IMG/VR virus record: IMGVR_UViG_3300043444_000140
Location: 1-64,000 of that record
DNA length: 64,000 bases
Origin: a virus
Direction: 5' to 3' (one strand)
The notes under the pieces were generated by a model. It saw nothing but the letters and a program-made list of their open reading frames with translations. It ran no database searches and was not told the origin of the DNA. Position numbers and translations under genes: made by a program. This document shows, one piece after another, positions 12,874 to 24,282 of this stretch (positions are counted from its first letter, which is position 1; each line of letters starts with the position of its first letter).

Positions 12874-12897
12874 ATTGTATCCTTACCTACTGACATT
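12874..12897 (-). promoter_or_regulatory. Class-I promoter (box TGTCAG)
   Basis: TGTCAG, 10 bp, TACAAT, then AGA. It overlaps the 3' end of the gene 12887-13003 and fires 12866 and downstream genes. Confidence 0.7.
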
Positions 12898-13003
12898 TAT
12901 TGTGTCCGATTCGTTTGTAGTAACTCTTCCATGTTTTGTAGCATTCCGTGCATTGGTATAAATCATAAGCAAGATCAGTTTTAATCTTCCTGGTTCGTAT
13001 CAT
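12887..13003 (-). CDS. Small zinc-finger-like protein
   Basis: 38 residues: MIRTRKIKTDLAYDLY, then QCTECYKTW and a final GHNKC. The C-x2-C-n-H-x3-C spacing suggests one zinc finger. AAGGA lies 6-7 nt before the ATG, inside the end of the upstream gene, which it overlaps by 23 bp. Confidence 0.55.
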   Translation of the reverse strand: MIRTRKIKTDLAYDLYQCTECYKTWKSYYKRIGHNKCQ

Positions 13004-13166
13004 TCATCATCCTTAGATAGTTCGTTGCCTGTTCGTGTTCCCATGGTTGGCAGGTTGGGCAATACTCTTGTTCTGCCTCGCAAATGTCGCAGAACGGATT
13101 ACAATCAAATGCTCCCTCGTGTCGGGGGCATACGATAGATTCGTGTTCAGTATTTAGGCATAGCAT
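12981..13166 (-). CDS. Small zinc-ribbon protein
   Basis: 61 residues with CPRHEG, CNPFCDICEAE and YCPTC: enough cysteines for two zinc sites. Start overlaps the upstream stop (TAATG). Unknown function. Confidence 0.6.
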   Translation of the reverse strand: MLCLNTEHESIVCPRHEGAFDCNPFCDICEAEQEYCPTCQPWEHEQATNYLRMMNDTNQED

Positions 13167-13366
13167 TAGCAAGAACCGTCATTTGGAATCTGGTCTTCTG
13201 GCACACCCATCATACGCAATACTGATTGGCTTCTTCCGATAAGACCCTCTAGGTAATCACCAAAGTTATCGTTGATGTCAAGACCCTCTTTCTCTTTTAT
13301 GAAAACCTTAGTATCCATAATTAGATAATCTATAATCTGTTGATTTGTCATTGGCTTGTCAGTCAT
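13166..13366 (-). CDS. Hypothetical small protein
   Basis: 66 residues, MTDKPMTNQQIIDYLIMDTK onward; RBS AAAGGA upstream. The class-I promoter at 13390-13413 lies directly before it, inside the 3' end of the upstream gene. Unknown function. Confidence 0.6.
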   Translation of the reverse strand: MTDKPMTNQQIIDYLIMDTKVFIKEKEGLDINDNFGDYLEGLIGRSQSVLRMMGVPEDQIPNDGSC

Positions 13367-13379
13367 TGTGGTTCCTTTC

Positions 13380-13796
13380 CTATGCGTCTATTGTATCTGA
13401 TACCACGGACATTGATTGGTCATACCCTCTAGCATAGTTCTGCCATAGAGCAAGGTTGTTCTCAAGGCGGTCTCCGAATACCCTCACAAAGTCAGCAAGG
13501 TCAATAGTCTTGTCAGAGATTAGAGGCTTCAGTTCCTCAATGGTGATGTCTTGGTATCCGCTGTTGAATTGACCTGCGTGGTAGTTTACAGGCACAAGTC
13601 CCTTGTCATCAGCAAACCAGCCAACGCCCTCGGAAACCACGGTAGCCAAACCATTCTTACCATTCACTACTACCATAGGTTCAGCAGTAATCTCTGTATC
13701 CTGATTAGAATAACGACTCTTGATAAGAGTAGCAGTCTTCTCTGGGTCTAGTAGGTGAACAATAGTTCCTTTTACACGGTTTTCATATCTTGACAT
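13380..13796 (-). CDS. Hypothetical protein
   Basis: 138 residues, start at 13796 with AAGGAG 7 nt upstream. Beta-rich first half (GTIVHLLDPEKTATLIKS), then acidic helices. Its last codons (MSVVSDTIDA) are at the same time the promoter of the next gene. Unknown function. Confidence 0.6.
   Translation of the reverse strand: MSRYENRVKGTIVHLLDPEKTATLIKSRYSNQDTEITAEPMVVVNGKNGLATVVSEGVGWFADDKGLVPVNYHAGQFNSGYQDITIEELKPLISDKTIDLADFVRVFGDRLENNLALWQNYARGYDQSMSVVSDTIDA
13390..13413 (-). promoter_or_regulatory. Class-I promoter inside a coding region
   Basis: AATGTCCG, 10 bp, TACAATAGA. The whole element is translated as the C-terminus of the 13380-13796 protein. It fires 13366 and downstream genes. 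Confidence 0.65.
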
Positions 13797-13822
13797 TTTG
13801 TCTCCTTTGGGGTTGTGTATCT

Positions 13823-13846
13823 ATTATACGGATACCCTCCGACATT
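13823..13846 (-). promoter_or_regulatory. Class-I promoter (box TGTCGG)
   Basis: AATGTCGGAGGG, 10 bp from TGTCGG to TATAAT, then AGA. Leader with AAGGAG for the gene at 13796. GACACGCC and TTACGA elements lie further upstream (13858-13895). Confidence 0.8.
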
Positions 13847-13978
13847 TATAGGTAGCGACACGCCAGAAACTGGGAAAAATATCTGATCTTCGTAATTGAT
13901 TTTTAAATGATTGTATATCTTATTTGCATCGACACATCCCCTGGATCTTGTCAAGTCCCAAATTGGGATAAAGAAAAA

Positions 13979-14000
13979 CCCTCACCGTTTCCAGTGAGGG
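13979..14000 (-). terminator. Intrinsic terminator
   Basis: Minus strand CCCTCAC-n8-GTGAGGG followed by TTTTTC, 15 bp after the stop of the DUF932 gene. Confidence 0.8.
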
Positions 14001-14015
14001 CTAATCATTTTTGCT

Positions 14016-15032
14016 TTACGCCATTACGACAGACTGAACAATCTTCATCAGGCGGTTCTTCTCAGCGTTGATTACAGGGTCAAAGCCAGAAGCCGAAGCA
14101 TAAATGCTTTCGTTGTTTCCGCCACGAGAGTTGCGATACCAGTCTAGGCGTTCGGTTAGAGCGTTGTATGCTCCCCAAGCAGTTCCTGAAATGGTGTTGT
14201 TGAATTGTCCAACATAAATGTCGTTGAGCAAGTCAATCTTGCTGTCATACTTCTTGACAGAACCCTTAGCATCTTTTTCTGGGGCAGGGTAGGCAAGTTC
14301 AACAATCTTGTCAAAGTCAGCCTTAGTGATTTCTTTTTCAATCATAGCGTTAGCCATAAGTGAGAACTCGTCAATGTAAGTCTTAGCCAAGCCAAGAGCC
14401 TCACGAGCAACCGCAATCTTACCCTCAGCAGTCTGAGTGTGTCGGATTTTGAAAGTTTGCTTGACAGACTTCTTGCCCTTGAAAGCAGATAGAGCAAGGT
14501 TGAGAGTGTTAGCACAAACAACACGAACAGGCGTGATACTTGCCTGAATAGCAATAGAGCCATCGTGGCTAGTGTTGATTAGCAGGTAGTTGTCAATCTT
14601 GTCAGCACGACCATTAGGGTCTAGGGTAATGCTGTCTTGTAGAGCGATAGAGCCAAACACGACACGACCGTTCTTGATAGAGCCAGCAGTTTCCCAACGA
14701 CCGCCACCGTCTAGCAGGTTGTCACCAAATGAGAACAAGTCCTCGTTCTGAAGTGGAACATAACGCTCACCAACAACGCCAAGAACATCATTCTGGCTAC
14801 GGTCAAATGGGTTAGTTCGGGTAACGAATGAGTAAGACTTGTCAGATGAAAAGCCGTCTGGCAATGATACGTCCTCAAGGCGAACATTCCAATCGTTCAA
14901 GTGAGCAAGCGACAACATCTCGCTAGTGTTTACCTCGTTCTCGAATACGGTTCCGAGGTTGTGCCAAGCAGGCTGGCGGAGAGAAGCGAAAGCAACTTCG
15001 CCGTTCTGTCCGATTTCTAGGTCGTGAGCCAT
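14016..15032 (-). CDS. DUF932 protein (phage/plasmid TIGR03299-like)
   Basis: 338 residues from ATG at 15032 (AGAAAGG upstream; the frame extends to 15101 without RBS). It shows the family pattern: WHNLGT near residue 25, SYSFVTRTNPFDRS, LGVVGERYVPLQN, VFGSIALQ, ITPVRVVCANTLNLAL and TAWGAYNALTERLDW. DUF932 proteins are common in phages, plasmids and mobile elements; their role is unknown. This is the largest protein of the 9-24 kb block, and it has its own strong promoter and a good terminator. Confidence 0.85.
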   Translation of the reverse strand: MAHDLEIGQNGEVAFASLRQPAWHNLGTVFENEVNTSEMLSLAHLNDWNVRLEDVSLPDGFSSDKSYSFVTRTNPFDRSQNDVLGVVGERYVPLQNEDLFSFGDNLLDGGGRWETAGSIKNGRVVFGSIALQDSITLDPNGRADKIDNYLLINTSHDGSIAIQASITPVRVVCANTLNLALSAFKGKKSVKQTFKIRHTQTAEGKIAVAREALGLAKTYIDEFSLMANAMIEKEITKADFDKIVELAYPAPEKDAKGSVKKYDSKIDLLNDIYVGQFNNTISGTAWGAYNALTERLDWYRNSRGGNNESIYASASGFDPVINAEKNRLMKIVQSVVMA

Positions 15033-15070
15033 AAGGTTCACCTTTCTGTTAGTGGGGATTTCTGATAAGT

Positions 15071-15099
15071 CTATTATCCCAAATAAACATAAGTTTGTC
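15071..15099 (-). promoter_or_regulatory. Sigma-70 promoter of the DUF932 gene
   Basis: Minus strand TTGACA, 17 bp, GATAAT, followed by AGA. Upstream lies TTACGACACGCC, the recurrent element of this region. Confidence 0.75.
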
Positions 15100-15171
15100 A
15101 ATACTATTTGGGAAAAACTTTTGGCGTGTCGTAAACCCGATCTTAATCCAATGTCAGGGGCTGGGGGTCGA

Positions 15172-15183
15172 TCCCCGAAGGGA
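15172..15183 (-). terminator. UUCG-capped hairpin
   Basis: Minus strand TCCC-TTCG-GGGA downstream of the gene ending at 15245. Confidence 0.45.
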
Positions 15184-15244
15184 GGCAGTTTACGTAGACA
15201 TGCCTAGGTCGTTTGCACAGGGGGTAAAGAAAGGTTAAGAACCC

Positions 15245-15670
15245 CTATGCATCCTTACTCCAGATAATGTCGGTCTGGAAGTCACTGATAGTGCTGTGGG
15301 TAACCTCAAAGTCAAAGTCCCACTCTGGGTCTGGTTCCTCGCCAATCTCGTACTCAACATCAATGGTGAAGGTAACATTAACCTCAACCTGCTTGGTCTT
15401 GGTTAGTTCAACGCCCAACTGCTCCGCAATGTACTTGACAGTGTCCTCGTCGTGGTCCTCAAGTGCCTCAACAAGTACAGTCTTGACTTTGGCTTCGTAT
15501 GCCCACTTCTCATTGCGAATGCGGTTGATAGTTTCAATACGTTGTGAATCTAGTTCAAGACCCTTCGCAACTTTTGATTCAAGGTCAGCAATCTTCTCGT
15601 TCAACTGCTGTAGTACAGGGTGGGTGTTAGGGACGTAGTCGCCAACAGTTCCAGTAATCATTTCATCCAT
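15245..15670 (-). CDS. Hypothetical coiled-coil/acidic protein
   Basis: 141 residues. LQQLNEKIADLESKVAKGLE suggests a coiled coil; the C-terminal half is acidic and beta-rich (VEVNVTFTIDVEYEIGEEPD). Driven by its own class-I promoter. Unknown function. Confidence 0.6.
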   Translation of the reverse strand: MDEMITGTVGDYVPNTHPVLQQLNEKIADLESKVAKGLELDSQRIETINRIRNEKWAYEAKVKTVLVEALEDHDEDTVKYIAEQLGVELTKTKQVEVNVTFTIDVEYEIGEEPDPEWDFDFEVTHSTISDFQTDIIWSKDA

Positions 15671-15699
15671 GGGTTCTTCTTTCTTTTGGTTAGGGTCTA

Positions 15700-15723
15700 A
15701 TTATACAGTGGGGGTCAGACATT
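15700..15723 (-). promoter_or_regulatory. Class-I promoter (box TGTCTG)
   Basis: AATGTCTG, 10 bp, TATAATTAGA; fires 15670. Overlaps the stop of the upstream gene at 15722. Confidence 0.75.
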
Positions 15724-15949
15724 ATGGCTTGTAGTCTAGAAGAATGTCTTGTGGGACTTCTCTGCCATACTCCCAGATAAGGCTCTCGTCAGCCCAATCG
15801 CCCTCGTCGCTAGGGTTGCCGTCTTCGTCTAGGTATCCCCATTCCTTAGCAATCTCTTCGGGTAGGTCATCAGTGTCAAGAACAAATAGTGAACGCTTGG
15901 TCTCAAAACGCCACCAGTCGCCATTCTCGTTTGCGATAAAAATTGCCAT
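15722..15949 (-). CDS. Hypothetical acidic protein
   Basis: 75 residues from ATG at 15949 with AAAGGA upstream (MAIFIANENGDWWRFETKRS). The longer frame to 16075 runs through the promoter and is rejected. Unknown function. Confidence 0.6.
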   Translation of the reverse strand: MAIFIANENGDWWRFETKRSLFVLDTDDLPEEIAKEWGYLDEDGNPSDEGDWADESLIWEYGREVPQDILLDYKP

Positions 15950-15977
15950 TAGTTGTTCCTTTCTTTGCGATGTATCT

Positions 15978-16001
15978 ATTATGCCATAGCCCTCCGACAT
16001 T
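15978..16001 (-). promoter_or_regulatory. Class-I promoter (box TGTCGG)
   Basis: AAATGTCGGAGGGC, 10 bp to CATAAT, AGA; fires 15949. Followed upstream by CCCCAAA and two TTACGA-type elements. Confidence 0.8.
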
Positions 16002-16138
16002 TTGGGGATTTCGTAAGGTGTGTCGTAATTGAAATCGTCGATACCACCAGGATCATCGACCCCGAACCACCACAAAAGTCAAGCCTGGTTTTTGACTAAT
16101 GTGGTGTGGTGAGCCGTTTAGACACTTGCTCAGGTGTT

Positions 16139-16152
16139 TAGGCGTAAGCCTA
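16139..16152 (-). terminator. Hairpin after 16158-16607
   Basis: TAGGC-TTAC-GCCTA on the minus strand, followed by a second imperfect stem (ACACCTGAGCAAGTGT). The same tandem arrangement occurs at 16769-16803. Confidence 0.5.
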
Positions 16153-16157
16153 TGGTT

Positions 16158-16607
16158 TTACAGCAAGTCCATTACAGACGAGTAGGTAGAAGCATTTACT
16201 TCTTCCTGCTGGGTCAGTTTGAGAACACGCAAGGTCTTCTCCAACATCTCCAAAGGTGTCGCATACTCACGACCAAATGAACGGCGAGAGTTCTGGTCTT
16301 CTGGCTTCTTTGGTGCGTCAGGGAAACCAAGTGCTACTCGGTCAATGCGAACATCAACAGAGTTGTTGTAGTCATTAGCAGACACACGAATAGGGTTGTC
16401 GTAGTTGTCGCCAACCAACTCAGGGTTCTCGGTTAGAGCCTTGATAGTTAGAGCAACAAGAGACTTCTTGTATGCGTTGTGGTCTGCTTCATACTGCTTT
16501 ACCAAAGCAGGGTAGTTAGCGGTTGCTTCCTTGATACCAGCAATCTTCTCTTCTACAAGAGCGATTAGAGATGCGGTTGGAACTTTTACAGCCAATGAAC
16601 GAGCCAT
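16158..16607 (-). CDS. Hypothetical helical protein
   Basis: 149 residues, MARSLAVKVPTASLIALVEE onward, mostly helical with a polar centre. Driven by its own class-I promoter with an AAAGAAAGAAG leader. Unknown function. Confidence 0.6.
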   Translation of the reverse strand: MARSLAVKVPTASLIALVEEKIAGIKEATANYPALVKQYEADHNAYKKSLVALTIKALTENPELVGDNYDNPIRVSANDYNNSVDVRIDRVALGFPDAPKKPEDQNSRRSFGREYATPLEMLEKTLRVLKLTQQEEVNASTYSSVMDLL

Positions 16608-16649
16608 TAGTTTTCTTCTTTCTTTTAGGGGTTGTTTTGTTATGTGTCT

Positions 16650-16673
16650 ATTGTAGCAATAGCCACCGACATT
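16650..16673 (-). promoter_or_regulatory. Class-I promoter (box TGTCGG)
   Basis: AATGTCGGTGGC, TACAATAGA; fires 16607. Confidence 0.8.
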
Positions 16674-16768
16674 ATACGATTACTCAGGGGCAAGCATTTC
16701 TAGAATACCTACCTCCAAGCAAAAGGGATTAGTTAGACATTTCCATAGTGTGTGAGCAGTTTTTTCAC

Positions 16769-16803
16769 AAAGACATACTCAGGTCTTTTGCCTACTGAAA
16801 GGC
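16769..16803 (-). terminator. Tandem hairpins after 16806-16961
   Basis: GCCT-TTCAGT-AGGC (16790-16803) then AAAGAC-n8-GTCTTT (16769-16788) on the minus strand. Confidence 0.5.
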
Positions 16804-16805
16804 TA

Positions 16806-16961
16806 TTACTTTACAGTAGTCCAGCGGTCTTGACCATTTACATCAAGACGAACACGGAACGAACCTGTCTTGTTTGCGATTACTTCCTGAACGATACCAA
16901 CGATACCTGCTCGCTGAGTGGTGAACTGCGAGCCAACAGTAGGGGCGATTACATTTGCCAT
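16806..16961 (-). CDS. Small beta-rich protein
   Basis: 51 residues: MANVIAPTVGSQFTTQ, RAGIVGIVQEVIANKTG, SFRVRLDVNGQDRWTTVK. The pattern of short strands with Gly suggests a KOW/SH3-like barrel. GGAAGCAATAA precedes the ATG. Two promoters lie upstream (class I at 17102 and TTGACT-17-GAAAAT near 17010-17037). Confidence 0.55.
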   Translation of the reverse strand: MANVIAPTVGSQFTTQRAGIVGIVQEVIANKTGSFRVRLDVNGQDRWTTVK

Positions 16962-17009
16962 TTATTGCTTCCTTTGTTTGTAGTTATTATCAACTTTTGC
17001 TGATACTCT

Positions 17010-17037
17010 ATTTTCCCATAGTTGGAAGTGAAAGTCA
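17010..17037 (-). promoter_or_regulatory. Sigma-70-type promoter
   Basis: Minus strand TTGACT, 17 bp, GAAAAT, then AGA, about 50 nt before the start at 16961. Confidence 0.45.
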
Positions 17038-17101
17038 AGCATTTTCTCAATCTTTTTGTAAAAAGTTTTTATTTATTTCTTGCTCATTTCCAACTACTAA
17101 T

Positions 17102-17125
17102 AGTATAAGGGTAGCCTCCGACATT
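17102..17125 (-). promoter_or_regulatory. Class-I promoter (box TGTCGG)
   Basis: AATGTCGGAGGC, TATACT; GGCGTGTCGTAA element 20 bp upstream. Transcribes toward 16961. Confidence 0.75.
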
Positions 17126-17195
17126 TTAGGGATTTGGCACGGCGTGTCGTAAAAAGATCTCGTAAGGTGTTCTAATGTCGGGGGTGGGGGTCGAT

Positions 17196-17207
17196 CCCCT
17201 TTCGGGG
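17196..17207 (-). terminator. Compact GC hairpin
   Basis: CCCC-GAAA-GGGG on the minus strand, just after the stop at 17219. Confidence 0.45.
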
Positions 17208-17218
17208 TAGGTGATCAG

Positions 17219-17281
17219 TTATTGCTCAATAATAAACCAGATTATGATAGCGACTATGATTATTCCTATTGCAGTTTCCAT
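17219..17281 (-). CDS. Single-span membrane micropeptide
   Basis: 20 residues: METAIGIIIVAI, IIWFIIEQ, a single membrane helix. TGGGATAAT (-10 17287-17292) lies 5 nt before the ATG, the leaderless layout used elsewhere. Comparable with the peptide at 8416-8481. Low certainty because of size. Confidence 0.4.
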   Translation of the reverse strand: METAIGIIIVAIIIWFIIEQ

Positions 17282-17302
17282 ACTCTATTATCCCATATCC
17301 CC

Positions 17303-18022
17303 CTACTTTTTACTAGCACTGAATAAAATGTCGTTGCGAGCAAACACACACTGCGAGCAAGCAACACAAGCAGAACCGTTAGTTGAAATCAAAGGCAACT
17401 TGCGATTGTTTTCAGGGCAGGGGATAGCAGACTTATCCTGAATAGTTTTGAAATCTGCCTTGCCTGTAGCAAAGTCTTTAGCAAGATAAGCCAACTTCAC
17501 GTCATACTGTTGCTTCAACTCAAAGCCCAATTCCTTGTTTGCTTCATCAGTTGAAAAGTAAAGTGATAGGTTGTCAATGTTGTTTAGCAACGGAATGGCA
17601 AAATCGCTTCGGGTGTATGCCCAAAATTGAACGGTAGAGTGTTTGCGAATAACATCTGCCCACGCATTAGTGTAATCAACGTTAAAGAAATCGCCGTCCC
17701 AGTGAATACGGAACAACTTTTCGGCATTACGCTTGTCACACTCGGCAACAAATTCGGTAATCATCTCGTCAATGAGGTTATACATCGTTAGGTAATCAGC
17801 GTCTTTGACTTGGTCCCAATTCTTAGTCAACACTTCACGAACGCCCTTGAATACTCGCTCAAGGTTTCCAGCGTAGCAAATCTTTTCACATACTGTGGTT
17901 GCTCCAGGGCATGAGTAAGCCTTACCACTAGGCAAGCCAAAAGTGTTAGCCATACTCGCTTGAGTGCCAGACTTGTTTACTTGGTTTGCTACCTTACGGT
18001 CTTTGCTCCTGATAAGTGCCAT
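17303..18022 (-). CDS. GP88-like cysteine-containing phage protein
   Basis: 239 residues. The N-terminus (SKDRKVANQVNKSGT, then CPGATTVCEKICYAGN) and LFRIHWDGDFFNVDYTNAW plus FWAYTRSD match the actinophage gene-product-88 family as I remember it. CPENN and CVACSQC near the end complete a cysteine set that could hold an iron-sulfur cluster or zinc. The D-G-D-F-F and Y-T-R pattern recalls radical-SAM-like phage proteins, but the substrate is unknown. Own class-I promoter. Confidence 0.6.
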   Translation of the reverse strand: MALIRSKDRKVANQVNKSGTQASMANTFGLPSGKAYSCPGATTVCEKICYAGNLERVFKGVREVLTKNWDQVKDADYLTMYNLIDEMITEFVAECDKRNAEKLFRIHWDGDFFNVDYTNAWADVIRKHSTVQFWAYTRSDFAIPLLNNIDNLSLYFSTDEANKELGFELKQQYDVKLAYLAKDFATGKADFKTIQDKSAIPCPENNRKLPLISTNGSACVACSQCVFARNDILFSASKK

Positions 18023-18048
18023 TGGGGTCTGCCTTTCTTAGTAGTTCT

Positions 18049-18072
18049 ATTTTACAACTGACCACCGACATT
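18049..18072 (-). promoter_or_regulatory. Class-I promoter (box TGTCGG)
   Basis: AATGTCGGTGGT, TAAAATAGA; fires 18022. ACGAC element upstream. Confidence 0.8.
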
Positions 18073-18124
18073 TTGGGGATATTCTTAATCGTGTCGTAAA
18101 TTGATCTTGCACGGAGGGGGTCGA

Positions 18125-18135
18125 CCCCGAAGGGG
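18125..18135 (-). terminator. UUCG-type hairpin
   Basis: CCCC-TTC-GGGG on the minus strand, 7 bp after the stop at 18142. Confidence 0.45.
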
Positions 18136-18141
18136 AGAGGA

Positions 18142-18462
18142 TTACTCCTCGTCCTCCTCGTAGTCGTCAACTAGCCAAGCGTCAAGGTGAGCGTGTTCAA
18201 TAACTGCCCAAGCAGGTGCGTGGTCTGAACCATCACGCCACCTAATCTGGAATGGCTCTCCGTTGCGGTCTACTCCGTCAAACGGTAGTTTGATTAGACG
18301 GTTAGTGTCGTCTTCCCAATAAGCGTCAATAGCCTCAACACAAACTGGAATCATCGCCTGTGGAATTGGTGGATAGTGATTAGCCGATAGGTGAATTGAT
18401 AGTTGTTGCTCTAGCGTAACGTCAAGGTTAGTTGCTAGGTCTAGTGCGGTCATTGCTCCCAT
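18142..18462 (-). CDS. Hypothetical acidic protein
   Basis: 106 residues, MGAMTALDLATNLDVTLEQQ onward with RWRDGSDHAPAWAVIEHAHL; acidic tail. Own class-I promoter with an AAAGG leader. Unknown function. Confidence 0.6.
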   Translation of the reverse strand: MGAMTALDLATNLDVTLEQQLSIHLSANHYPPIPQAMIPVCVEAIDAYWEDDTNRLIKLPFDGVDRNGEPFQIRWRDGSDHAPAWAVIEHAHLDAWLVDDYEEDEE

Positions 18463-18959: not shown

Positions 18960-19144
18960 TAGTTGCTCTCCTTGTTGTCTAGAATGTCTGCTACTTCATT
19001 TACGCCATCAACTTTGCCAACGGCATAGGCATAGTCAAAGATTTGACGGAAATTTACAATTGTGTAAATAGAAACATCGTGCTTCTCTGCCAACTCCTGA
19101 ATAGGGTTGTAGTAGTTCCAAAACTCTTGCTCTCGCTTGTCCAT
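18959..19144 (-). CDS. Hypothetical small protein
   Basis: 61 residues, MDKREQEFWNYYNPIQELAE onward; RBS AAAGGA upstream. Two-gene unit with 18516-18959. Unknown function. Confidence 0.6.
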   Translation of the reverse strand: MDKREQEFWNYYNPIQELAEKHDVSIYTIVNFRQIFDYAYAVGKVDGVNEVADILDNKESN

Positions 19145-19168
19145 AGTTATCCTTTCTTAGATACTTAC

Positions 19169-19192
19169 ATTATAGGGTGAGCCACCGACATT
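19169..19192 (-). promoter_or_regulatory. Class-I promoter (best match to consensus)
   Basis: AATGTCGGTGGC, TATAAT; overlaps the stop of the upstream gene (19191) and fires 19144. Confidence 0.85.
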
Positions 19193-19361
19193 ATAGGTGC
19201 TCGGCGATAGCCTTACGCTTGTTAGACTGACGGCTACCCTTGCGAGTAGCAGGTGTTTCTACTAGGTGTGGTGATAGCATTAGCGAACGGAATAGTTCGG
19301 CTGAGTGTGCCTTGCGGATAGCGTTGTTGATTTTGCTCATTGGCTTCTTTGTTTTCTTCAT
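19191..19361 (-). CDS. Small basic protein, leaderless
   Basis: 56 residues: MKKTKKPMSKINNAIRKAHS at the start and GSRQSNKRKAIAEHL at the end, strongly basic. The -10 (19368-19373) of a class-I promoter ends 6 nt before the ATG, so it is leaderless. A nucleic-acid-binding role would fit. Unknown family. Confidence 0.6.
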   Translation of the reverse strand: MKKTKKPMSKINNAIRKAHSAELFRSLMLSPHLVETPATRKGSRQSNKRKAIAEHL

Positions 19362-19367
19362 AGGATT

Positions 19368-19391
19368 ATTATACAGGACACCTCAGACATT
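19368..19391 (-). promoter_or_regulatory. Class-I promoter (box TGTCTG), leaderless
   Basis: AATGTCTGAGGT, TATAAT, 6 nt, ATG of 19361. Upstream CCCCTAA, GACACGCC and TTACGA elements. Confidence 0.8.
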
Positions 19392-19456
19392 TAGGGGATT
19401 TGTTTCGGCGTGTCTTAATTTGATTCGTAAATGATTGGGCAGGAGGGGGAGGGTCG

Positions 19457-19470
19457 ATCCCCGAAGGGAT
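19457..19470 (-). terminator. UUCG-capped hairpin
   Basis: ATCCC-TTCG-GGGAT on the minus strand, 4 bp after the stop at 19475. Confidence 0.55.
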
Positions 19471-19474
19471 GGGA

Positions 19475-19633
19475 CTAGAAGTCATCTCCATAGTAGCCGT
19501 AGTCCTCGTCAGTTCCCCAACCAGCAGAGGCTAGGGCATCGCCATCCATCCAGTCGCCATCCTCCTCAAAGGTGTCCTCCACCTCTGGGCAGTCGTTCTG
19601 GTCGTGTCCGCAGCAAGGGTAGTCTTCGCACAT
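19475..19633 (-). CDS. Small acidic Cys protein (MCEDYPCCGH type)
   Basis: 52 residues starting MCEDYPCCGHDQNDCPE, an N-terminal signature recurrent in actinophages; the rest is acidic and Gly/Tyr-rich. AAAGGA upstream. Likely one zinc site. Unknown function. Confidence 0.65.
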   Translation of the reverse strand: MCEDYPCCGHDQNDCPEVEDTFEEDGDWMDGDALASAGWGTDEDYGYYGDDF

Positions 19634-19657
19634 AGTTTTCCTTTCGTTGATAAAGCA

Positions 19658-19681
19658 ATACTAACAGACGCTACCGACATT
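19658..19681 (-). promoter_or_regulatory. Class-I promoter (box TGTCGG)
   Basis: AATGTCGGTAGC, TAGTAT; fires 19633. Confidence 0.7.
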
Positions 19682-19733
19682 TTGGGGAAGATCTTTAGCG
19701 TGTCTTAATTTGATCTGGATCCTGGATCGGATC

Positions 19734-19747
19734 GACCCCGAAGGGTC
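19734..19747 (-). terminator. UUCG-capped hairpin
   Basis: GACCC-TTCG-GGGTC on the minus strand, overlapping the last base of the stop at 19747. Confidence 0.55.
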
Positions 19748-19866
19748 TAGAATGGTGGAGCGTTGTCTGCTTCGCCCTGGCGGTATCCCCAGGTCTTGCC
19801 TAGGCGGTATGCGAAATAAACCAACACAATGTCAATCAAAAGATTGAAGCCGTTATAGAACATCAT
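19747..19866 (-). CDS. Small membrane-span protein
   Basis: 39 residues: MMFYNGFNLLIDIVLVYFAY then RLGKTWGYRQGEADN. One probable membrane helix and a basic cytoplasmic side. Start coupled to the previous stop (TGATG). Unknown function. Confidence 0.5.
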   Translation of the reverse strand: MMFYNGFNLLIDIVLVYFAYRLGKTWGYRQGEADNAPPF

Positions 19867-19961
19867 CAGTATCCTGCTTTCTCAAAAATTGCCAGTAGTT
19901 CTTCAAGGGTTGATTCTGGTAAAGCGTCAATCGCTTCTTCGTTGATTACATTCTCAAACAT
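19866..19961 (-). CDS. Small helical protein
   Basis: 31 residues, MFENVINEEAIDALPESTLE onward, acidic. Overlaps the upstream gene by 8 bp; the long frame to 20123 is antisense-like noise. Unknown function. Confidence 0.45.
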   Translation of the reverse strand: MFENVINEEAIDALPESTLEELLAIFEKAGY

Positions 19962-20160
19962 TTTCTTCAACTGCCTTTCTCTGGTAGTAGTCAATCCAAG
20001 AAACGATTTCTTCTCTTGGAACCATTCCCCAAACCATAGCGTCAAGGTATGATTGGAAATAAGGTGAGCGTTCGTCAACAGCGTCTTCGGCAGGGGTGTT
20101 GCGGTTGTAGTGAGCAAGGGCAAGAGCCTTGAATTGCTGTTCTAGTTCATACTTGTTCAT
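19954..20160 (-). CDS. Hypothetical protein
   Basis: 68 residues from MNKYELEQQFKALALAHYNR (AAAGG upstream); the frame continues to 20211 through the promoter and that part is rejected. Unknown function. Confidence 0.6.
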   Translation of the reverse strand: MNKYELEQQFKALALAHYNRNTPAEDAVDERSPYFQSYLDAMVWGMVPREEIVSWIDYYQRKAVEENV

Positions 20161-20188
20161 TGTATGCCTTTCTTTGTTTGATAAGACT

Positions 20189-20212
20189 ATTATAGAGTGA
20201 GCCACCGACATT
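20189..20212 (-). promoter_or_regulatory. Class-I promoter (box TGTCGG)
   Basis: AAATGTCGGTGGC, TATAATAG; fires 20160 and coupled genes. It begins right at the stop of 20212-20418. Confidence 0.85.
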
Positions 20213-20418
20213 TATTTTTCGGGGATTACAAAATGCTCATAAGCAAACTCAACATACTCTTTGTGGTAAAAGGTATCAAAAATAGTTAGCAGGTTGCCAA
20301 TACGGAATAGGCGAGGGTCGCCGTTAGGGTCATCAGTGCTTCCCGAGATACCTGCCAACTCAATTTCTTTCATTAGGTCTAGGATTTCGGTTTTTAGTGC
20401 TTCTAGTTTTTCGTTCAT
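20212..20418 (-). CDS. Hypothetical helical protein, leaderless
   Basis: 68 residues, MNEKLEALKTEILDLMKEIE onward. The class-I -10 (20425-20430) is 6 nt before the ATG. The frame to 20517 reads through the promoter and is rejected. Unknown function. Confidence 0.6.
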   Translation of the reverse strand: MNEKLEALKTEILDLMKEIELAGISGSTDDPNGDPRLFRIGNLLTIFDTFYHKEYVEFAYEHFVIPEK

Positions 20419-20424
20419 AGGATA

Positions 20425-20448
20425 ATTATACAGACAGCCACCGACATT
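20425..20448 (-). promoter_or_regulatory. Class-I promoter, leaderless
   Basis: AATGTCGGTGGC, TATAAT, 6 nt, ATG of 20418. Confidence 0.85.
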
Positions 20449-20534
20449 GATTGGCAAGACACGCCGATCTTTTGGGAAATTTTTTGGGAGATTTTTAATG
20501 CGGTACGTAAAGTCCATGGCAGGCGGTCGATCCG

Positions 20535-20576
20535 ATCATCGACCCGATCCACCGACATTTGTCAAGTCGGTTTCTC
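20535..20576 (-). promoter_or_regulatory. Degenerate class-I promoter
   Basis: TTGACA directly followed by AATGTCGGTGG, but the expected -10 position reads CGATGA. No gene follows before the intact promoter at 20425-20448. Looks like the remnant of a lost gene cassette. Confidence 0.4.
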
Positions 20577-20585
20577 GGCGTGTCG

Positions 20586-20729
20586 CTAGAACGGCGGTTG
20601 CAAACTTTCGTTTTCTTCTTCTAGTTCCCGAATGTTTTTTAGCAACACTACAACGGTAGCAGTTAGGCTTAGAACCATTACCAAACTAGCGAGAGCGAAG
20701 ATTGAGAAAATCAAAAATGTTTCGTTCAT
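20586..20729 (-). CDS. Membrane protein with coiled-coil tail
   Basis: 47 residues: hydrophobic LIFSIFALASLVMVLSLTAT and VVVLL, then charged KNIRELEEENESLQ. One long membrane helix and a short coiled coil, reminiscent of spanin- or holin-accessory-sized proteins. Start overlaps the upstream stop (TAATG). Confidence 0.55.
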   Translation of the reverse strand: MNETFLIFSIFALASLVMVLSLTATVVVLLKNIRELEEENESLQPPF

Positions 20730-20911
20730 TAGTTGCCTGCCTTGTCTGCGAATACTGCGTCAATAAAACGCTGGTGAGAAAATCTTGGGTTGTCGTTCTC
20801 AAACATCTGTGCGAACTTGTCCGCAATGTCTGCGAGAATGATGAAGTCAATTTCATCAACCTTGCTGTTTAGAATGTTTGCGGTTTCTACGTAGTCTTTG
20901 CGTGTCATCAT
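20729..20911 (-). CDS. Conserved actinophage-type small protein
   Basis: 60 residues: MMTRKDYVETANILNSK and QMFENDNPRFSHQRFIDAVF. The M-T-R-K-D-Y start and DNPRF-x3-RF end are widespread in actinophages, function unknown. AAGGACAG RBS. Confidence 0.65.
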   Translation of the reverse strand: MMTRKDYVETANILNSKVDEIDFIILADIADKFAQMFENDNPRFSHQRFIDAVFADKAGN

Positions 20912-20940
20912 TTTTCTGTCCTTTGCTTGTTTTTGATTTT

Positions 20941-20964
20941 ATTTTACTTTATGCCACAGACATT
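20941..20964 (-). promoter_or_regulatory. Class-I promoter inside a gene end
   Basis: AAAATGTCTGTGGC, TAAAAT. Codes at the same time for the last residues (KMSVA) of 20949-21110; fires 20911. Confidence 0.7.
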
Positions 20965-21110
20965 TTGTGGTCTGCGGTAAAGGTGAAGTAGCCCTCAAAG
21001 CGTGGGCTTGGGATTTTGTGAAGAAACTCTGGCTTGTCCCAAATGTTCTTGGCAATCAAGCCGAGTTCGCCACAAGTTGGGCAAGGGGTTAGTTCGTTAT
21101 CTGGATACAT
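20949..21110 (-). CDS. Small zinc-knuckle protein
   Basis: 53 residues, MYPDNELTPCPTCGELGLIA onward; one CxxC pair. Start 21110 chosen because AGGA lies 7 nt upstream. Ends in KMSVA encoded by the next promoter. Unknown function. Confidence 0.6.
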   Translation of the reverse strand: MYPDNELTPCPTCGELGLIAKNIWDKPEFLHKIPSPRFEGYFTFTADHKMSVA

Positions 21111-21141
21111 TTTCATTTCCTGTTCTTTGTTTGTTAGTTCT

Positions 21142-21165
21142 ATCTTAGGGGAAGCCACCGACATT
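21142..21165 (-). promoter_or_regulatory. Class-I promoter (box TGTCGG)
   Basis: AAATGTCGGTGGC, TAAGAT; fires 21110. Confidence 0.75.
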
Positions 21166-21330
21166 TTAGCGGTAGCCGTGTCCTAGGTAGTCTGCCCATT
21201 CGTTAGGGTCAAGTTCTAGGTAAGTGATAGCAGAACCCAAAGGCATCAAGCCCTTGTAGTCATTACACTCGTGGCAGACAAAAGTTCCGTTCTCGAAAAC
21301 GGTCTCACAAAATACACACATTAGTTTCAT
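21166..21330 (-). CDS. Small zinc-ribbon protein
   Basis: 54 residues: MKLMCVFCETVFENGTFVCH, then ECNDYKGL. Two CxxC-type pairs form a classic zinc ribbon; the C-terminus LELDPNEWADYLGHGYR is acidic-aromatic. Own class-I promoter. Confidence 0.65.
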   Translation of the reverse strand: MKLMCVFCETVFENGTFVCHECNDYKGLMPLGSAITYLELDPNEWADYLGHGYR

Positions 21331-21353
21331 AGTTTTCCTTTCTTGATAATTCT

Positions 21354-21377
21354 ATTTTAGACTAAGCCACCGACATT
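21354..21377 (-). promoter_or_regulatory. Class-I promoter (box TGTCGG)
   Basis: AAATGTCGGTGGC, TAAAATAGA; fires 21330. Confidence 0.8.
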
Positions 21378-21541
21378 TAGACTTTGCCACCCATTGACTT
21401 GACTACTCGCATTAGCAAAGTGAGTTCACGCTCAAACTTTGGGTCTAGGTCTTGGTCAGCGTCAAGGGTAGCCATAGCAATTTCCACCATAGCGTTGTAT
21501 TCTGCTTGGAGGGTTGGGAGGTCCATTGGAGTCTTGTTCAT
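21377..21541 (-). CDS. Small helical protein
   Basis: 54 residues, MNKTPMDLPTLQAEYNAMVE onward; predicted two helices. AAAGG leader. Unknown function. Confidence 0.6.
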   Translation of the reverse strand: MNKTPMDLPTLQAEYNAMVEIAMATLDADQDLDPKFERELTLLMRVVKSMGGKV

Positions 21542-21565
21542 TAGTTTACCTTTCTTTCTACTCTT

Positions 21566-21589
21566 ATTATGGCATAGCCCACCGACATT
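21566..21589 (-). promoter_or_regulatory. Class-I promoter (box TGTCGG)
   Basis: AAATGTCGGTGGG, CATAAT; fires 21541. Confidence 0.8.
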
Positions 21590-21767
21590 TTAAGGACATT
21601 TTGGGGTGTTTTGGAAAAGATTAACTAGGTTAACATTTCCTGTGAATTTGATCGTTTTTGCATCTCGGGCGTGTCGGGGATCCGATCTTAAGCGTCTTAA
21701 AAAGTTATCCACAGAGTTATCCACAGGATCGACACAGATCCAGGCGGATGTCAAGACGACACGCCGA
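21590..21767. other. Gene-free control segment with two DnaA boxes
   Basis: TTATCCACA at 21705-21713 and 21717-21725, 12 bp apart, plus GGCGTGTC and GACACGCC elements on each side (about 21669 and 21759). No coding frame is convincing. Confidence 0.5.
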
Positions 21768-21911
21768 TTAGCAGTGGATTTCTAGAATCTCTGCTATCTC
21801 TGAGGCGGTACGAGCGTACACCTCTTCATTACACTCAGGGCAGTAGCCTGAGTAGAAGCGGTCATCCCAGTGTAGAGGGACAATCTGACCATTGGTTAGT
21901 GAAACAATCAT
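21768..21911 (-). CDS. Small zinc-knuckle protein
   Basis: 47 residues, MIVSLTNGQIVPLHWDDRFY then GYCPECNEEVYAR and a terminal HC. One zinc site likely. Own promoter at 21940. Confidence 0.6.
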   Translation of the reverse strand: MIVSLTNGQIVPLHWDDRFYSGYCPECNEEVYARTASEIAEILEIHC

Positions 21912-21939
21912 TCTGTTTCCTTTCTTTTATCTTGTTATT

Positions 21940-21963
21940 ATCTTAGCATTAGGGGCGGACACT
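21940..21963 (-). promoter_or_regulatory. Class-I promoter, divergent box
   Basis: GTGTCCG, 10 bp, TAAGAT; fires 21911. The box lies in the stop region of the next gene. Confidence 0.55.
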
Positions 21964-21966
21964 CGG

Positions 21967-22116
21967 TTAGTTTTTTGCTAACCAAGCAACGCAACCTTCG
22001 CAGGTCTTTACATTTTCTTCATAGATGTTGCCTTCGCAAACATCGCAGTGAGTGAACGGAATGTATAGAACCTTTCCGTTGTAGTATACCTTTTTTCCTT
22101 TTTTTAGTTCAGTCAT
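21967..22116 (-). CDS. Small zinc-ribbon protein
   Basis: 49 residues: MTELKKGKKVYYNGKVLYIP, then HCDVCEG and KTCEGCVAW. Two CxxC pairs. The basic N-terminus and KVYYNGKVL pattern suggest a nucleic-acid- or protein-binding ribbon. Confidence 0.65.
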   Translation of the reverse strand: MTELKKGKKVYYNGKVLYIPFTHCDVCEGNIYEENVKTCEGCVAWLAKN

Positions 22117-22144
22117 TTTGACTTCCTTTCTTTTATCTATATAT

Positions 22145-22173
22145 ATCTAAACACATACCACCGACATTGTCAA
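22145..22173 (-). promoter_or_regulatory. Class-I promoter with TTGACA -35
   Basis: TTGACA (22168-22173), 17-bp spacer carrying ATGTCGGTGG, -10 TTAGAT (22145-22150). Shows that the box lies inside the normal spacer. Fires 22116. Confidence 0.8.
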
Positions 22174-22177
22174 CCCG

Positions 22178-22284
22178 ACACGCCGTGTTTTGGGGGAAAT
22201 TTTTTAAGCGTTATAAATCTGTTATATTCGAACATCTGTTCGGATCATCGACGCACTCGGGCGTGTCGGATCTCGGGCGTGTCG
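22178..22284. promoter_or_regulatory. Control module with LexA-like box, copy 1
   Basis: Bounded by GACACGCC (about 22183) and two GGCGTGTCG copies (22258-22285). Inside: GGGGAAAT, CGTTATAA, GTTATATT and the palindrome TCGAACATCTGTTCGG (22228-22243), a match to GAAC-N4-GTTC. A second copy is at 23816-23937. Confidence 0.6.
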
Positions 22285-22464
22285 CTAACGTGTCTTGGTT
22301 AGCATTAGGGTCAAGTAGCGGTCCTGATTTTCTTTTGATAGCGTTGCCCAAGCCTTGCGGTCAAGGTAACGCTGTCCATTGCGAATTTCAGGGGTAGCGA
22401 ATACGATAGCGTTAGCCCAAGCCATGAAAGCCTTTTCGCTTCGGGTCATTCTTGCTTTTCTCAT
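22285..22464 (-). CDS. Small basic protein
   Basis: 59 residues, MRKARMTRSEKAFMAWANAI onward; basic, Trp-containing, two helices. AAAGG leader. Could bind nucleic acid. Unknown family. Confidence 0.6.
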   Translation of the reverse strand: MRKARMTRSEKAFMAWANAIVFATPEIRNGQRYLDRKAWATLSKENQDRYLTLMLTKTR

Positions 22465-22488
22465 TAGTTAGCCTTTCTTAGTAGTTTT

Positions 22489-22512
22489 ATTTTAGCCTAG
22501 CCCACCGACATT
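22489..22512 (-). promoter_or_regulatory. Class-I promoter (box TGTCGG)
   Basis: TAATGTCGGTGGG, TAAAAT; starts at the stop of 22511-22714, fires 22464. Confidence 0.8.
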
Positions 22513-22714
22513 AATCAAGGGGCTTGCGTAGTCCTTGTTCCAGGAAGCGGTCAAAGTGCATTTTCTTTTCTGCCATAGCAGATACAAACTTTACACCGTT
22601 AGCCTTAGCGAAGAAGTCAATTGCAGGGTGTCCATACCAAGCAACCTGCACACCACGATAGACAGTGCCGTCCTCGGTCTTACCCGATACTACCCATTCA
22701 ATTCCTTTTGACAT
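22511..22714 (-). CDS. Hypothetical protein
   Basis: 67 residues, MSKGIEWVVSGKTEDGTVYR onward; alpha/beta. RBS AAAGGA. Unknown function. Confidence 0.6.
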   Translation of the reverse strand: MSKGIEWVVSGKTEDGTVYRGVQVAWYGHPAIDFFAKANGVKFVSAMAEKKMHFDRFLEQGLRKPLD

Positions 22715-22738
22715 TAGTTGTCCTTTCTTTCTATTACT

Positions 22739-22762
22739 AACTTAGCAGGTGCTACCGACATT
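22739..22762 (-). promoter_or_regulatory. Class-I promoter, weak -10
   Basis: AAATGTCGGTAGC, 10 bp, TAAGTT; fires 22714. Confidence 0.65.
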
Positions 22763-22764
22763 TA

Positions 22765-22905
22765 TTAGATGTCGCAACCAATGCTAGCGTGGCAGTAGAT
22801 ACAAACCTCTTCGCCACAGCGTCCGCATTCGTCCTGTGGAGTGTGAGTATCGCAGATGTCGCAGTAGCCTAGGTCTTCTGCGTAGTATTCTTTTTGAGTG
22901 TTCAT
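22765..22905 (-). CDS. Small zinc-binding protein
   Basis: 46 residues with CDICDTH, CGRCGEEVCIYCH and a terminal GCD: eight cysteines plus histidines, enough for two interleaved zinc sites (treble-clef or B-box-like). AAAGG upstream. Unknown partner. Confidence 0.65.
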   Translation of the reverse strand: MNTQKEYYAEDLGYCDICDTHTPQDECGRCGEEVCIYCHASIGCDI

Positions 22906-22934
22906 CTTGAACCTTTCTTTCTTTATCTACTATT

Positions 22935-22958
22935 ACATTAGCACCCCCCACCGACATT
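22935..22958 (-). promoter_or_regulatory. Class-I promoter (box TGTCGG)
   Basis: AAATGTCGGTGGG, TAATGT; fires 22905. GACACGCC 9 bp upstream. Confidence 0.7.
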
Positions 22959-23053
22959 TAAGTGTAAGACACGCCAATAAAATGGGGAAATTTATAACGT
23001 TCTTATAACGCCCCTGGATCCCTTATAAACAAAGGGCTGTAGAGGGGATCGAC

Positions 23054-23065
23054 CCCCTTTCGGGG
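23054..23065 (-). terminator. GC hairpin
   Basis: CCCC-GAAA-GGGG on the minus strand after the stop at 23080, flanked by GATC on both sides. Confidence 0.45.
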
Positions 23066-23079
23066 ATCTTGTCAAGTCC

Positions 23080-23298
23080 TTACATCAACTTGTCTAGTAG
23101 GCGAGAAAACTGAGGGTAGAAAGCAAGGATTACAGCAAGCACAAAGCCAATCTGTGAACCAATAAAAAAGGTTTCACTAATTGTTTGGCTAGGCTCTGCC
23201 CCTAGCAGTAGCAGGGTAAGGTATAGGAACACATACGCACCAGCAACAAACGGAATAGATACAATGCCAAGGATTGCTCTACGGATTACATACTTCAT
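23080..23298 (-). CDS. Two-span membrane protein
   Basis: 72 residues: basic MKYVIRRAI, hydrophobic LGIVSIPFVAGAYVFLYLTL, a short loop, then FFIGSQIGFVLAVILAF and a basic end. Holin-sized but found among accessory genes, so a holin role is only a possibility. Confidence 0.6.
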   Translation of the reverse strand: MKYVIRRAILGIVSIPFVAGAYVFLYLTLLLLGAEPSQTISETFFIGSQIGFVLAVILAFYPQFSRLLDKLM

Positions 23299-23300
23299 TA

Positions 23301-23387
23301 TTATTTCCCTTCTTGTGAAAAGTCTACATCATCAATGAGCATTATGTCAATAAGCCCAATTAGGTATTCTAGTTCTTGAGTGTCCAT
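23301..23387 (-). CDS. Tiny acidic protein
   Basis: 28 residues, MDTQELEYLIGLIDIMLIDD onward. Located between its class-I promoter (23421) and the membrane protein, 2 bp apart. RBS weak. Low certainty. Confidence 0.4.
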   Translation of the reverse strand: MDTQELEYLIGLIDIMLIDDVDFSQEGK

Positions 23388-23420
23388 TATTGATTAATTA
23401 AGATTACTAACGTTATAGCA

Positions 23421-23444
23421 ATTATAAGCAGGGCTACAGACATT
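23421..23444 (-). promoter_or_regulatory. Class-I promoter (box TGTCTG)
   Basis: AAATGTCTGTAGC, TATAAT; fires 23387 and 23298. Confidence 0.75.
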
Positions 23445-23578
23445 TAGATGATAGCCCATCCTGTTATCTGTCCTTTTTCATACATAGACTTGTAGAACTT
23501 TAGGACCTCTGCCTTGTGCTGTGGGTCATATGAGGGGTAGATTGTGGTACCGTCCTTGAGGATGATTTCTAGGTTCAT
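23444..23578 (-). CDS. Small protein
   Basis: 44 residues, MNLEIILKDGTTIYPSYDPQ onward, ending ITGWAII. Small alpha/beta fold. AAAGG RBS. Unknown function. Confidence 0.6.
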   Translation of the reverse strand: MNLEIILKDGTTIYPSYDPQHKAEVLKFYKSMYEKGQITGWAII

Positions 23579-23604
23579 GAGTGTTACCTTTCTTAGTTGT
23601 TATT

Positions 23605-23628
23605 AGTGTACAGTAGGGGTCAGACATT
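23605..23628 (-). promoter_or_regulatory. Class-I promoter (box TGTCTG)
   Basis: CAATGTCTGACC, TACACT; fires 23578. Confidence 0.7.
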
Positions 23629-23632
23629 GAGT

Positions 23633-23743
23633 CTAGTGAATCTCACCATACTCTGACCAGCAGATTTCACAACCATACTCGCCAGCCTCCTTTACGAAGA
23701 CCTTTTCTACTACTACATCACATAGTTCACAAACTGAAAACAT
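23633..23743 (-). CDS. Small zinc-ribbon protein
   Basis: 36 residues: MFSVCELCDVVVEKVF, then GCEICWSEYGEIH. Two CxxC pairs: a minimal zinc ribbon. AAAGG leader. Confidence 0.6.
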   Translation of the reverse strand: MFSVCELCDVVVEKVFVKEAGEYGCEICWSEYGEIH

Positions 23744-23785
23744 TTGTTACCTTTCTTTCTTTTATCTATTTATCTTTATATATAT

Positions 23786-23814
23786 ATCTAACCATAGACC
23801 ACTGACAAAGTCAA
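23786..23814 (-). promoter_or_regulatory. Class-I promoter with TTGACT -35
   Basis: TTGACT, 17-bp spacer with TTGTCAGTGG, TTAGAT. Same architecture as 22145-22173. Fires 23743. Confidence 0.75.
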
Positions 23815-23815
23815 G

Positions 23816-23937
23816 ACGACACGCCGATGATCTGGGAAATATTTTAACCCGTTATAAGATCGTTATATTAGAACAAATGTTCGAATGCGTCGATGTCGTT
23901 ATCAATTCGTTATCAAACAATGGCGTGTCGCTATACA
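23816..23937. promoter_or_regulatory. Control module with LexA-like box, copy 2
   Basis: Bounded by CGACACGCCGAT and GGCGTGTCGC. Inside: GGGAAATATTTTAA, CGTTATAA, CGTTATATTA and GAACAAATGTTC (23871-23882), a perfect GAAC-N4-GTTC. Lies in the divergent region between 23743 (minus) and 23989 (plus). Confidence 0.6.
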
Positions 23938-23961
23938 AATGTCTGTCGGGTGTGCTAATGT
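23938..23961 (+). promoter_or_regulatory. Class-I promoter on the plus strand
   Basis: AATGTCTG, 10 bp, TAATGT; fires 23989. Shows that the motif tracks with gene direction. Confidence 0.7.
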
Positions 23962-23988
23962 ATTTATATCAAGAGATAAGGACAGAAG

Positions 23989-24255
23989 ATGTTTGTAGCA
24001 GAGATTTTCAACGTAGTAGTTGTAGAAGAAGTAGAAGATGGCGAAGTGTATGAATACACTCGCATTGAAGATGATTTCTCAATGTTTTTCGACATCAAGG
24101 CAGATGCAGAGATGTGGCTTGCAACTGCACCACAAACTGAAAAGCACCTAATGGAAGTGCAAAGCACTTGCGGTTGCCTAGAAGATGGCGACAAGGTTGA
24201 ATTGGTTATGAACTTTGGCGACCACGCTGTTGCTTACTGCCACCCTTGCTCATAG
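23989..24255 (+). CDS. Hypothetical acidic protein
   Basis: 88 residues, MFVAEIFNVVVVEEVEDGEV onward, with TCGCLEDGD and a terminal YCHPCS that may bind zinc. AAGGACAG RBS; class-I promoter 28 bp upstream. First plus-strand gene after the minus block. Unknown function. Confidence 0.65.
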   Translation: MFVAEIFNVVVVEEVEDGEVYEYTRIEDDFSMFFDIKADAEMWLATAPQTEKHLMEVQSTCGCLEDGDKVELVMNFGDHAVAYCHPCS

Positions 24256-24258
24256 GCA

Positions 24259-24282
24259 ATTGTCGGCGGTATCAACTAAAAT
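24259..24282 (+). promoter_or_regulatory. Class-I promoter on the plus strand
   Basis: ATTGTCGGCGG, 10 bp, TAAAAT; fires 24309. Confidence 0.7.

Follow-up and report, generated by a model that had tools for sequence, protein, structure and literature searches.

Which factor reads the promoter that precedes nearly every gene in an array of about 11.4 kb of virus record IMGVR_UViG_3300043444_000140? The window that we analysed is the first 64 kb of this 107,035-bp record, and the remainder of the genome was retrieved too. The promoter joins a short box to a -10 element in the form WWAATGTCNGWSSY-N6-TATAAT and usually lacks a -35 element. Sequence comparison leads us to conclude, at a probability of roughly 0.85, that these box promoters are PafBC-dependent promoters (RecA-NDp, P1-type) of a kind common to the phage and actinobacterial hosts. 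Promoters of this type are familiar from bacteria; what seems to be new is that a phage employs one as standard throughout a gene array, and no phage use of PafBC promoters was found in the literature searched, which covered few subscription papers.

A box promoter confined to one gene array

A position weight matrix trained on relatives, applied at a threshold of at least 14 bits to the whole genome, returned 28 sites, 26 on the minus and two on the plus strand. The initial annotation had counted 27 (25 minus, two plus), and the family it described is thus real. All 28 sites fall within 12,866-24,290 and none lies elsewhere in the 107 kb, so that the label phage-wide has to be given up for a single array of accessory genes. 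An open reading frame (ORF) starts downstream of every site, in 26 of the 28 at 0-36 nucleotides (nt) past the predicted start site, which bears out the earlier claim that the sites directly precede genes; three of the promoters are leaderless.

Could such a short motif recur by chance, or be a mobile repeat unrelated to transcription? Several boxes do overlap the preceding gene's stop codon. Composition-preserving shuffles nevertheless gave only 0-2 matrix matches, even at a looser cut-off, against the 28 observed. The exact form TGTCGG-N10-TATAAT was found four times (0.00 expected), and AATGTCGGTGGC with at most two mismatches matched 27 times in the window, 23 of them within 12.9-24.3 kb, where 3.4 were expected and the maximum of 100 shuffles was 8. 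The -10 element, the initiator and the ORF start also stand at fixed positions, and over 100 viral contigs share the arrangement. The shuffles refute this explanation, to which we assign next to no weight.

The anatomy of the promoter was read from a logo of 481 distinct sites in relatives: W-W-A-A-TGTC-N-G-W-S-S-Y, N6, TATAAT, AGA, with a T/A step at -1/+1. The box spans -30 to -19 and is centred near -26. TGTC is invariant and R occupies the sixth position in about 69% of sites; conservation extends to W-W-A ahead of the box, W-S-S-Y behind it and the AGA past the -10 that had been pointed out from this genome. Positions -9/-8 switch between GG and CC. Across all relatives two box subtypes can be told apart at -9 to -7, TGTCGGTGGC and TGTCTGACCC, the latter rendering GTCNGAC palindromic, and the GG/CC alternation is also seen at host recA sites.

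The -35 region carries no information in the logo. TTGACA was matched at five or six of its six positions, with a 17-bp spacer, in 65 of the 481 sites (14%, against 0.4% background), and the remaining 86% have no usable -35, in agreement with the earlier remark that most sites lack one. The two exceptions singled out then, TTGACA at 22,168-22,173 and TTGACT at 23,809-23,814, are present.

These features also bear on the idea that a repressor binds the box, as an operator or stoperator in early promoters, and holds them off in lysogeny. Many asymmetric copies running in one direction do resemble the stoperators of cluster A mycobacteriophages, and short asymmetric repeats of one orientation are likewise found in actinophages as cluster K start-associated sequences. 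Both, however, have other sequences and no fixed -10 partner. Promoters of which 86% have no usable -35 would be weak unless activated; a repressor does not need an invariant gap to the -10, and the sites occur at promoters only. A protein search with DUF932 found no relative in 84,980 bacterial genomes and so gives no sign of lysogeny. We regard a repressor site as very improbable.

Conservation among related phages

The closest named relatives of the virus are Streptomyces phages of the Stanwilliamsviridae, with DUF932 and DnaE proteins at about 55-57% amino-acid identity; at the DNA level, megablast matched none of the known phages. A first set of 61 viral loci was retrieved by a search with the DUF932 protein of the array. 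In a fixed-spacing search of the genome and these relatives, a gap of 10 bp between TGTCNG and the -10 outnumbered every other gap in nearly all loci, and the constant spacing noticed in the window therefore holds well beyond it.

A second set was obtained by scanning viral contigs with one 18-base version of the promoter. The scan found 72 stretches, of which 70 bear arrays of 2-26 sites. All 70 have homologues in reference phages, and most belong to a distant lineage whose DnaE is 54% identical; in the DnaE tree the Streptomyces phages form a third lineage. Repeated with T ahead of TGTC, the scan found 62 stretches, and these come from phages of the same kind. The Streptomyces relatives carry a similar minus-strand array, yet their first 30 kb are largely without the box (Samisti12 has two loose matches), which means that the box is either ancestral and was lost there or was gained more than once.

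One record (G017, behind locus L053) was dropped from the comparison, as gene calling gave only 57 genes in its 100 kb. It is probably an error-rich assembly or uses another genetic code; it had initially appeared to lack both the box and a WhiB protein.

The counterpart at host DNA-damage genes

The published consensus of RecA-independent DNA-damage promoters in actinobacteria is tTGTCRgtg-8 nt-TannnT (PMC5656591). Written as ATGTCNGWS-N8-TATAAT, the phage form is identical to it in core and spacing. The phage box has TGTC followed by N, G, W, S, S and Y where the host core lies, at about -26; eight nt separate the 9-mer from TAnnnT, a gap that also matches host recA genes; and, with a -35 in 14% of sites, it shares the -35 independence of these promoters. 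In bacteria they are read by sigma adaptation, in which the helix-turn-helix (HTH) of PafB sits on the -26 motif and that of PafC on domain 4 of SigA; single-stranded DNA (ssDNA) in the WYL domains activates PafBC, and the SigA RNA polymerase then uses -35-less promoters (PMC11804915). Suboptimal -35 elements are compensated by PafBC in this way (PMC10936776).

We ran the same 18-base phage pattern against the 84,980 bacterial genomes and found 33 single matches and no arrays. Actinobacterial matches precede uvrA (L234), nrdH (L240) and several 13E12-type DUF222 genes (L215, L232, L239), names that we assigned by reading translations, and an SOS-like TCGAACA often follows the -10. Genes of these kinds belong to the DNA-damage response. 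We then took a host-like sample of 24 genomes, made up of 22 small ones (1.0-1.9 Mb) from the class of Subtercola and two controls. Upstream of recA in those that encode PafC, TGTCNG-N10-TANNNT occurred 19 times, at 18 of 20 loci, where the other gaps, from 4 to 16, occurred 0-4 times each; 12 of the gap-10 sites directly abut an SOS box. The pattern was found at none of 30 uvrB/uvrC control loci of the same genomes. HTH_PafC is encoded in 20 of the 24 host-like genomes and in all 10 actinobacterial genomes matched by the phage box.

Stricter searches recovered fewer host sites. The strict phage-consensus pattern matched only three times in 198 genomes of one actinobacterial class (control 0), and the host recA sites recovered by the gap-fixed core pattern escaped the phage-trained matrix at a cut-off of 12 bits; the reason is that TGTC is preceded by T in hosts and that their -10 is weaker. 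MAFFT displaced the -26 element of the host promoters by five columns, and the phage/host alignment is therefore informative for the core only.

The initial annotation had likened the family to T4 middle promoters and taken it to imply a dedicated activator or repressor. Part of the comparison holds: as in MotA/AsiA sigma appropriation there is an activator box (near -26 here, about -30 in T4), a -10 and usually no -35, and the contact of sigma domain 4 is shifted from DNA to protein. The sequence differs, with a TGTCNG core in place of the T4 box, and the matching factor is the host's; T4 MotA is the wrong relative. A phage-encoded activator, whether MotA-type or a PafBC mimic, would replace the -35 and make the array a middle-gene regulon. 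The box at -30 to -19 of -35-less promoters would suit it, as would an A before TGTC that is more uniform than in hosts, and the phage does encode a WhiB-like protein; members of this class are known to bind to sigma region 4 (PMC6282962). Set against this, the same element with the same spacing at bacterial recA, uvrA and DUF222 genes makes a phage factor unnecessary. WhiB is also present in Streptomyces relatives largely without the box, and the MotA DNA-binding family (PF09158) gave no match, though this search lacked a positive control, the control genomes giving none either. Neither this phage nor any of 30 further phage records, some of them fragments, yielded a WYL-domain protein, in a search that a very divergent one could escape. 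A dedicated phage activator is, in our judgement, unlikely.

Nor need the host reader be PafBC. The box could be read by ClgR, for example, or by some other host protein that regulates these promoters; a study cited in PMC5656591 reported that ClgR recognised the P1 motif and that induction of DNA-repair genes required it. In later structural and in vitro work, it is the PafB HTH to which the -26 motif is assigned, and PafBC is the ssDNA-dependent activator (PMC11804915), which renders this possibility less likely still than a phage activator.

PafBC thus remains the preferred reader, and four points weigh against it. The near-absence of the box from the Streptomyces relatives means that the wiring is not family-wide. 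The base ahead of TGTC is A in 88% of close-relative sites (A or T in more distant phages) and mostly T in host recA promoters. The WYL search has the limits given above, namely very divergent proteins and fragmentary records. Finally, the presence of PafBC in plausible hosts was scored on host-like actinobacterial genomes, as stand-ins for the phage's own host.

Other systems help to place the phage promoters. With the bacterial PafBC promoters they share the TGTCRG core, the eight nt to the -10, the -26 position and the lack of a -35, as well as SOS boxes adjoining some promoters, the element itself standing at recA, uvrA, nrdH and DUF222. They differ in being repeated about 28 times in an 11-kb array of mostly unknown small genes rather than serving DNA repair, in the usual A before TGTC, in a TATAAT-like -10 within a low-GC genome and in some perfect -35 elements. 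The AfsR/SARP activators of Streptomyces also adapt sigma and make up for a poor -35 from a position between DNA and sigma R4 (PMC10936776), but the AfsR box overlaps the -35 element, and both the protein family and the signal are different. LexA-controlled phage promoters similarly link phage genes to the host damage response, and LexA-like boxes occur in the array; the main element here is, however, an activator site and not a repressor site.

Array genes and the proposed switch

The features of the array are as follows (matrix scores in bits).

12866-12899, minus: box promoter, leaderless ATG 12866; 21.0 bits; AATGTCAGTAGG N6 TACAAT
13382-13415, minus: box promoter, ORF start 13366; 27.9 bits
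13815-13848, minus: box promoter, ORF start 13796; 30.5 bits
14016-15032, minus: DUF932 gene, the most conserved of the array; canonical TTGACA-N17-GATAAT promoter with degenerated box
15692-15725, minus: box promoter (AATGTCTGACCC subtype), ORF start 15670; 25.9 bits
15970-16003, minus: box promoter, ORF start 15949; 32.2 bits
16642-16675, minus: box promoter, conserved 149-amino-acid (aa) ORF start 16607; 32.5 bits
17094-17127, minus: box promoter, 134 nt ahead of conserved 51-aa ORF start 16961; 29.3 bits
Minus strand, closer to the 51-aa ORF starting at 16961 than its box promoter: second promoter (TTGACT)
18041-18074, minus: box promoter, GP88-family gene start 18022; 35.3 bits
18485-18518, minus: box promoter, ORF start 18462; 31.3 bits
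19161-19194, minus: box promoter, ORF start 19144; 31.9 bits
19360-19393, minus: box promoter, leaderless ATG 19361; 32.8 bits
19650-19683, minus: box promoter, ORF start 19633; 21.0 bits
20181-20214, minus: box promoter, ORF start 20160; 35.1 bits
20417-20450, minus: box promoter, leaderless ATG 20418; 30.9 bits
20933-20966, minus: box promoter, ORF start 20911; 28.7 bits
21134-21167, minus: box promoter, ORF start 21110; 33.1 bits
21346-21379, minus: box promoter, ORF start 21330; 35.2 bits
21558-21591, minus: box promoter, ORF start 21541; 28.9 bits
21932-21965, minus: weak box promoter (AGTGTCCGCCCC), ORF start 21911; 15.5 bits
22137-22173, minus: hybrid promoter, TTGACA -35 (22168-22173) abutting box, ORF start 22116; 19.1 bits
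22228-22243, no strand: LexA/SOS-like box, one mismatch to TCGAACANNTGTTCGA
22481-22514, minus: box promoter, ORF start 22464; 32.4 bits
22731-22764, minus: box promoter, ORF start 22714; 24.5 bits
22927-22960, minus: box promoter, ORF start 22905; 24.5 bits
23413-23446, minus: box promoter, 116 nt ahead of ORF start 23298; 19.7 bits
23597-23630, minus: box promoter (CCC subtype), ORF start 23578; 27.4 bits
23778-23814, minus: hybrid promoter, TTGACT -35 (23809-23814) with TTTGTCAGTGGT box, ORF start 23743; 16.7 bits
23869-23884, no strand: LexA/SOS-like box, one mismatch to TCGAACANNTGTTCGA
23936-23969, plus: box promoter, ORF start 23989; 22.3 bits
24257-24290, plus: box promoter, ORF start 24309; 21.4 bits

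Gene content is highly variable among relatives and the promoter constant. Most array genes are missing from most relatives, and across 12,981-24,282 the genes differ nearly wholly, as if exchanged with a standard promoter attached; those kept are DUF932, the 149-aa gene and the 51-aa gene. The 51-aa protein (16,806-16,961, minus strand) is conserved in array-bearing phages and has a weak KOW-like match under the cut-off. The DUF932 promoter of the window has retained its -35 and lost the box, whereas most relatives have a hybrid of the two: a good -35 lies upstream of DUF932 in 31 of 34 regions, and 20 of those 34 have the box as well.

LexA-like boxes stand next to the two hybrid promoters here and were also found in the arrays of two relatives; together they suggest a second tie to the DNA-damage response. 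In the window both lie in duplicated stretches of about 110 bp upstream of the two hybrid promoters, and one relative (G002) has a perfect SOS box at 42,494.

A further repeat, GGCGTGTC (complement GACACGCC), recurs on the minus strand about 10-20 nt upstream of many boxes, in intergenic sequence from 13.8 to 24 kb. It is separated from the box by a TTTCCCC tract at variable spacing and includes GACAC, a WhiA motif. A promoter of the WhiA/WhiB type (GACAC or GTGTC) does not describe the box itself, which reads ATGTC or TTGTC and is asymmetric, GACACGCC lying further upstream at unfixed spacing. Several CCCTTCGGGG/CCGAAAGG stem-loops followed by GATCGACCCCC lie between array genes (15,140-24,000) and are probable terminators. 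Outside the array, an RtcB RNA ligase gene (4,624-5,790, plus strand) is missing from the sampled relatives.

The WhiB-like protein is encoded at genome position 98,416-98,589 (plus strand), outside the window, and has four cysteines and GVWGG. Of 25 records of relatives, 16 carry such a gene, as do the Streptomyces relatives. We considered and dropped WhiB as the factor that reads the box, as Samisti12, Wakanda and Annadreamy encode it and are yet largely without the box; it could be a competitor of PafC for sigma domain 4.

With nearly every array gene behind a host-type PafBC promoter, the host DNA-damage sensor probably turns on the viral array. Host RNA polymerase with the housekeeping sigma would engage TATAAT, and host PafBC would substitute for the missing -35, with the PafB HTH on TGTCNGWSS at about -26 and the PafC HTH on sigma domain 4. 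PafBC would become competent only once ssDNA occupies its WYL domains, so that ssDNA arising in infection would act through PafBC to switch on about 28 small accessory genes. The minority of promoters with a good -35 at 17 bp, above all the conserved DUF932 promoter, should fire without PafBC. We infer from the literature the binding of PafBC, its dependence on ssDNA and the timing, and on that basis propose that the phage borrows host PafBC and thereby ties its array to ssDNA; the promoter anatomy, its conservation, its identity in sequence and spacing with the promoters of host recA, uvrA and DUF222 genes and the lack of a detectable WYL protein were observed directly.

More tentatively, and with somewhat less than even confidence, we suggest that in a widespread family of actinophages PafBC is the master switch of a takeover array and infection ssDNA its timing signal, with the hybrid DUF932 promoter starting earlier and WhiB perhaps later competing for sigma domain 4.

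If the PafBC reading is correct, this virus carries some 28 copies of a promoter taken from host DNA repair, and they place a whole array under the host damage sensor. Many unknown early phage genes would then be predicted to be mitomycin C-inducible and pafBC-dependent, and the promoter would provide a rule for spotting such genes in metagenomes. It would also raise the question of whether hosts could resist these phages through loss of PafBC. The phages would, moreover, offer several hundred natural PafBC promoters, a library from which the -26 element can be defined much better than from the regulon of bacteria.

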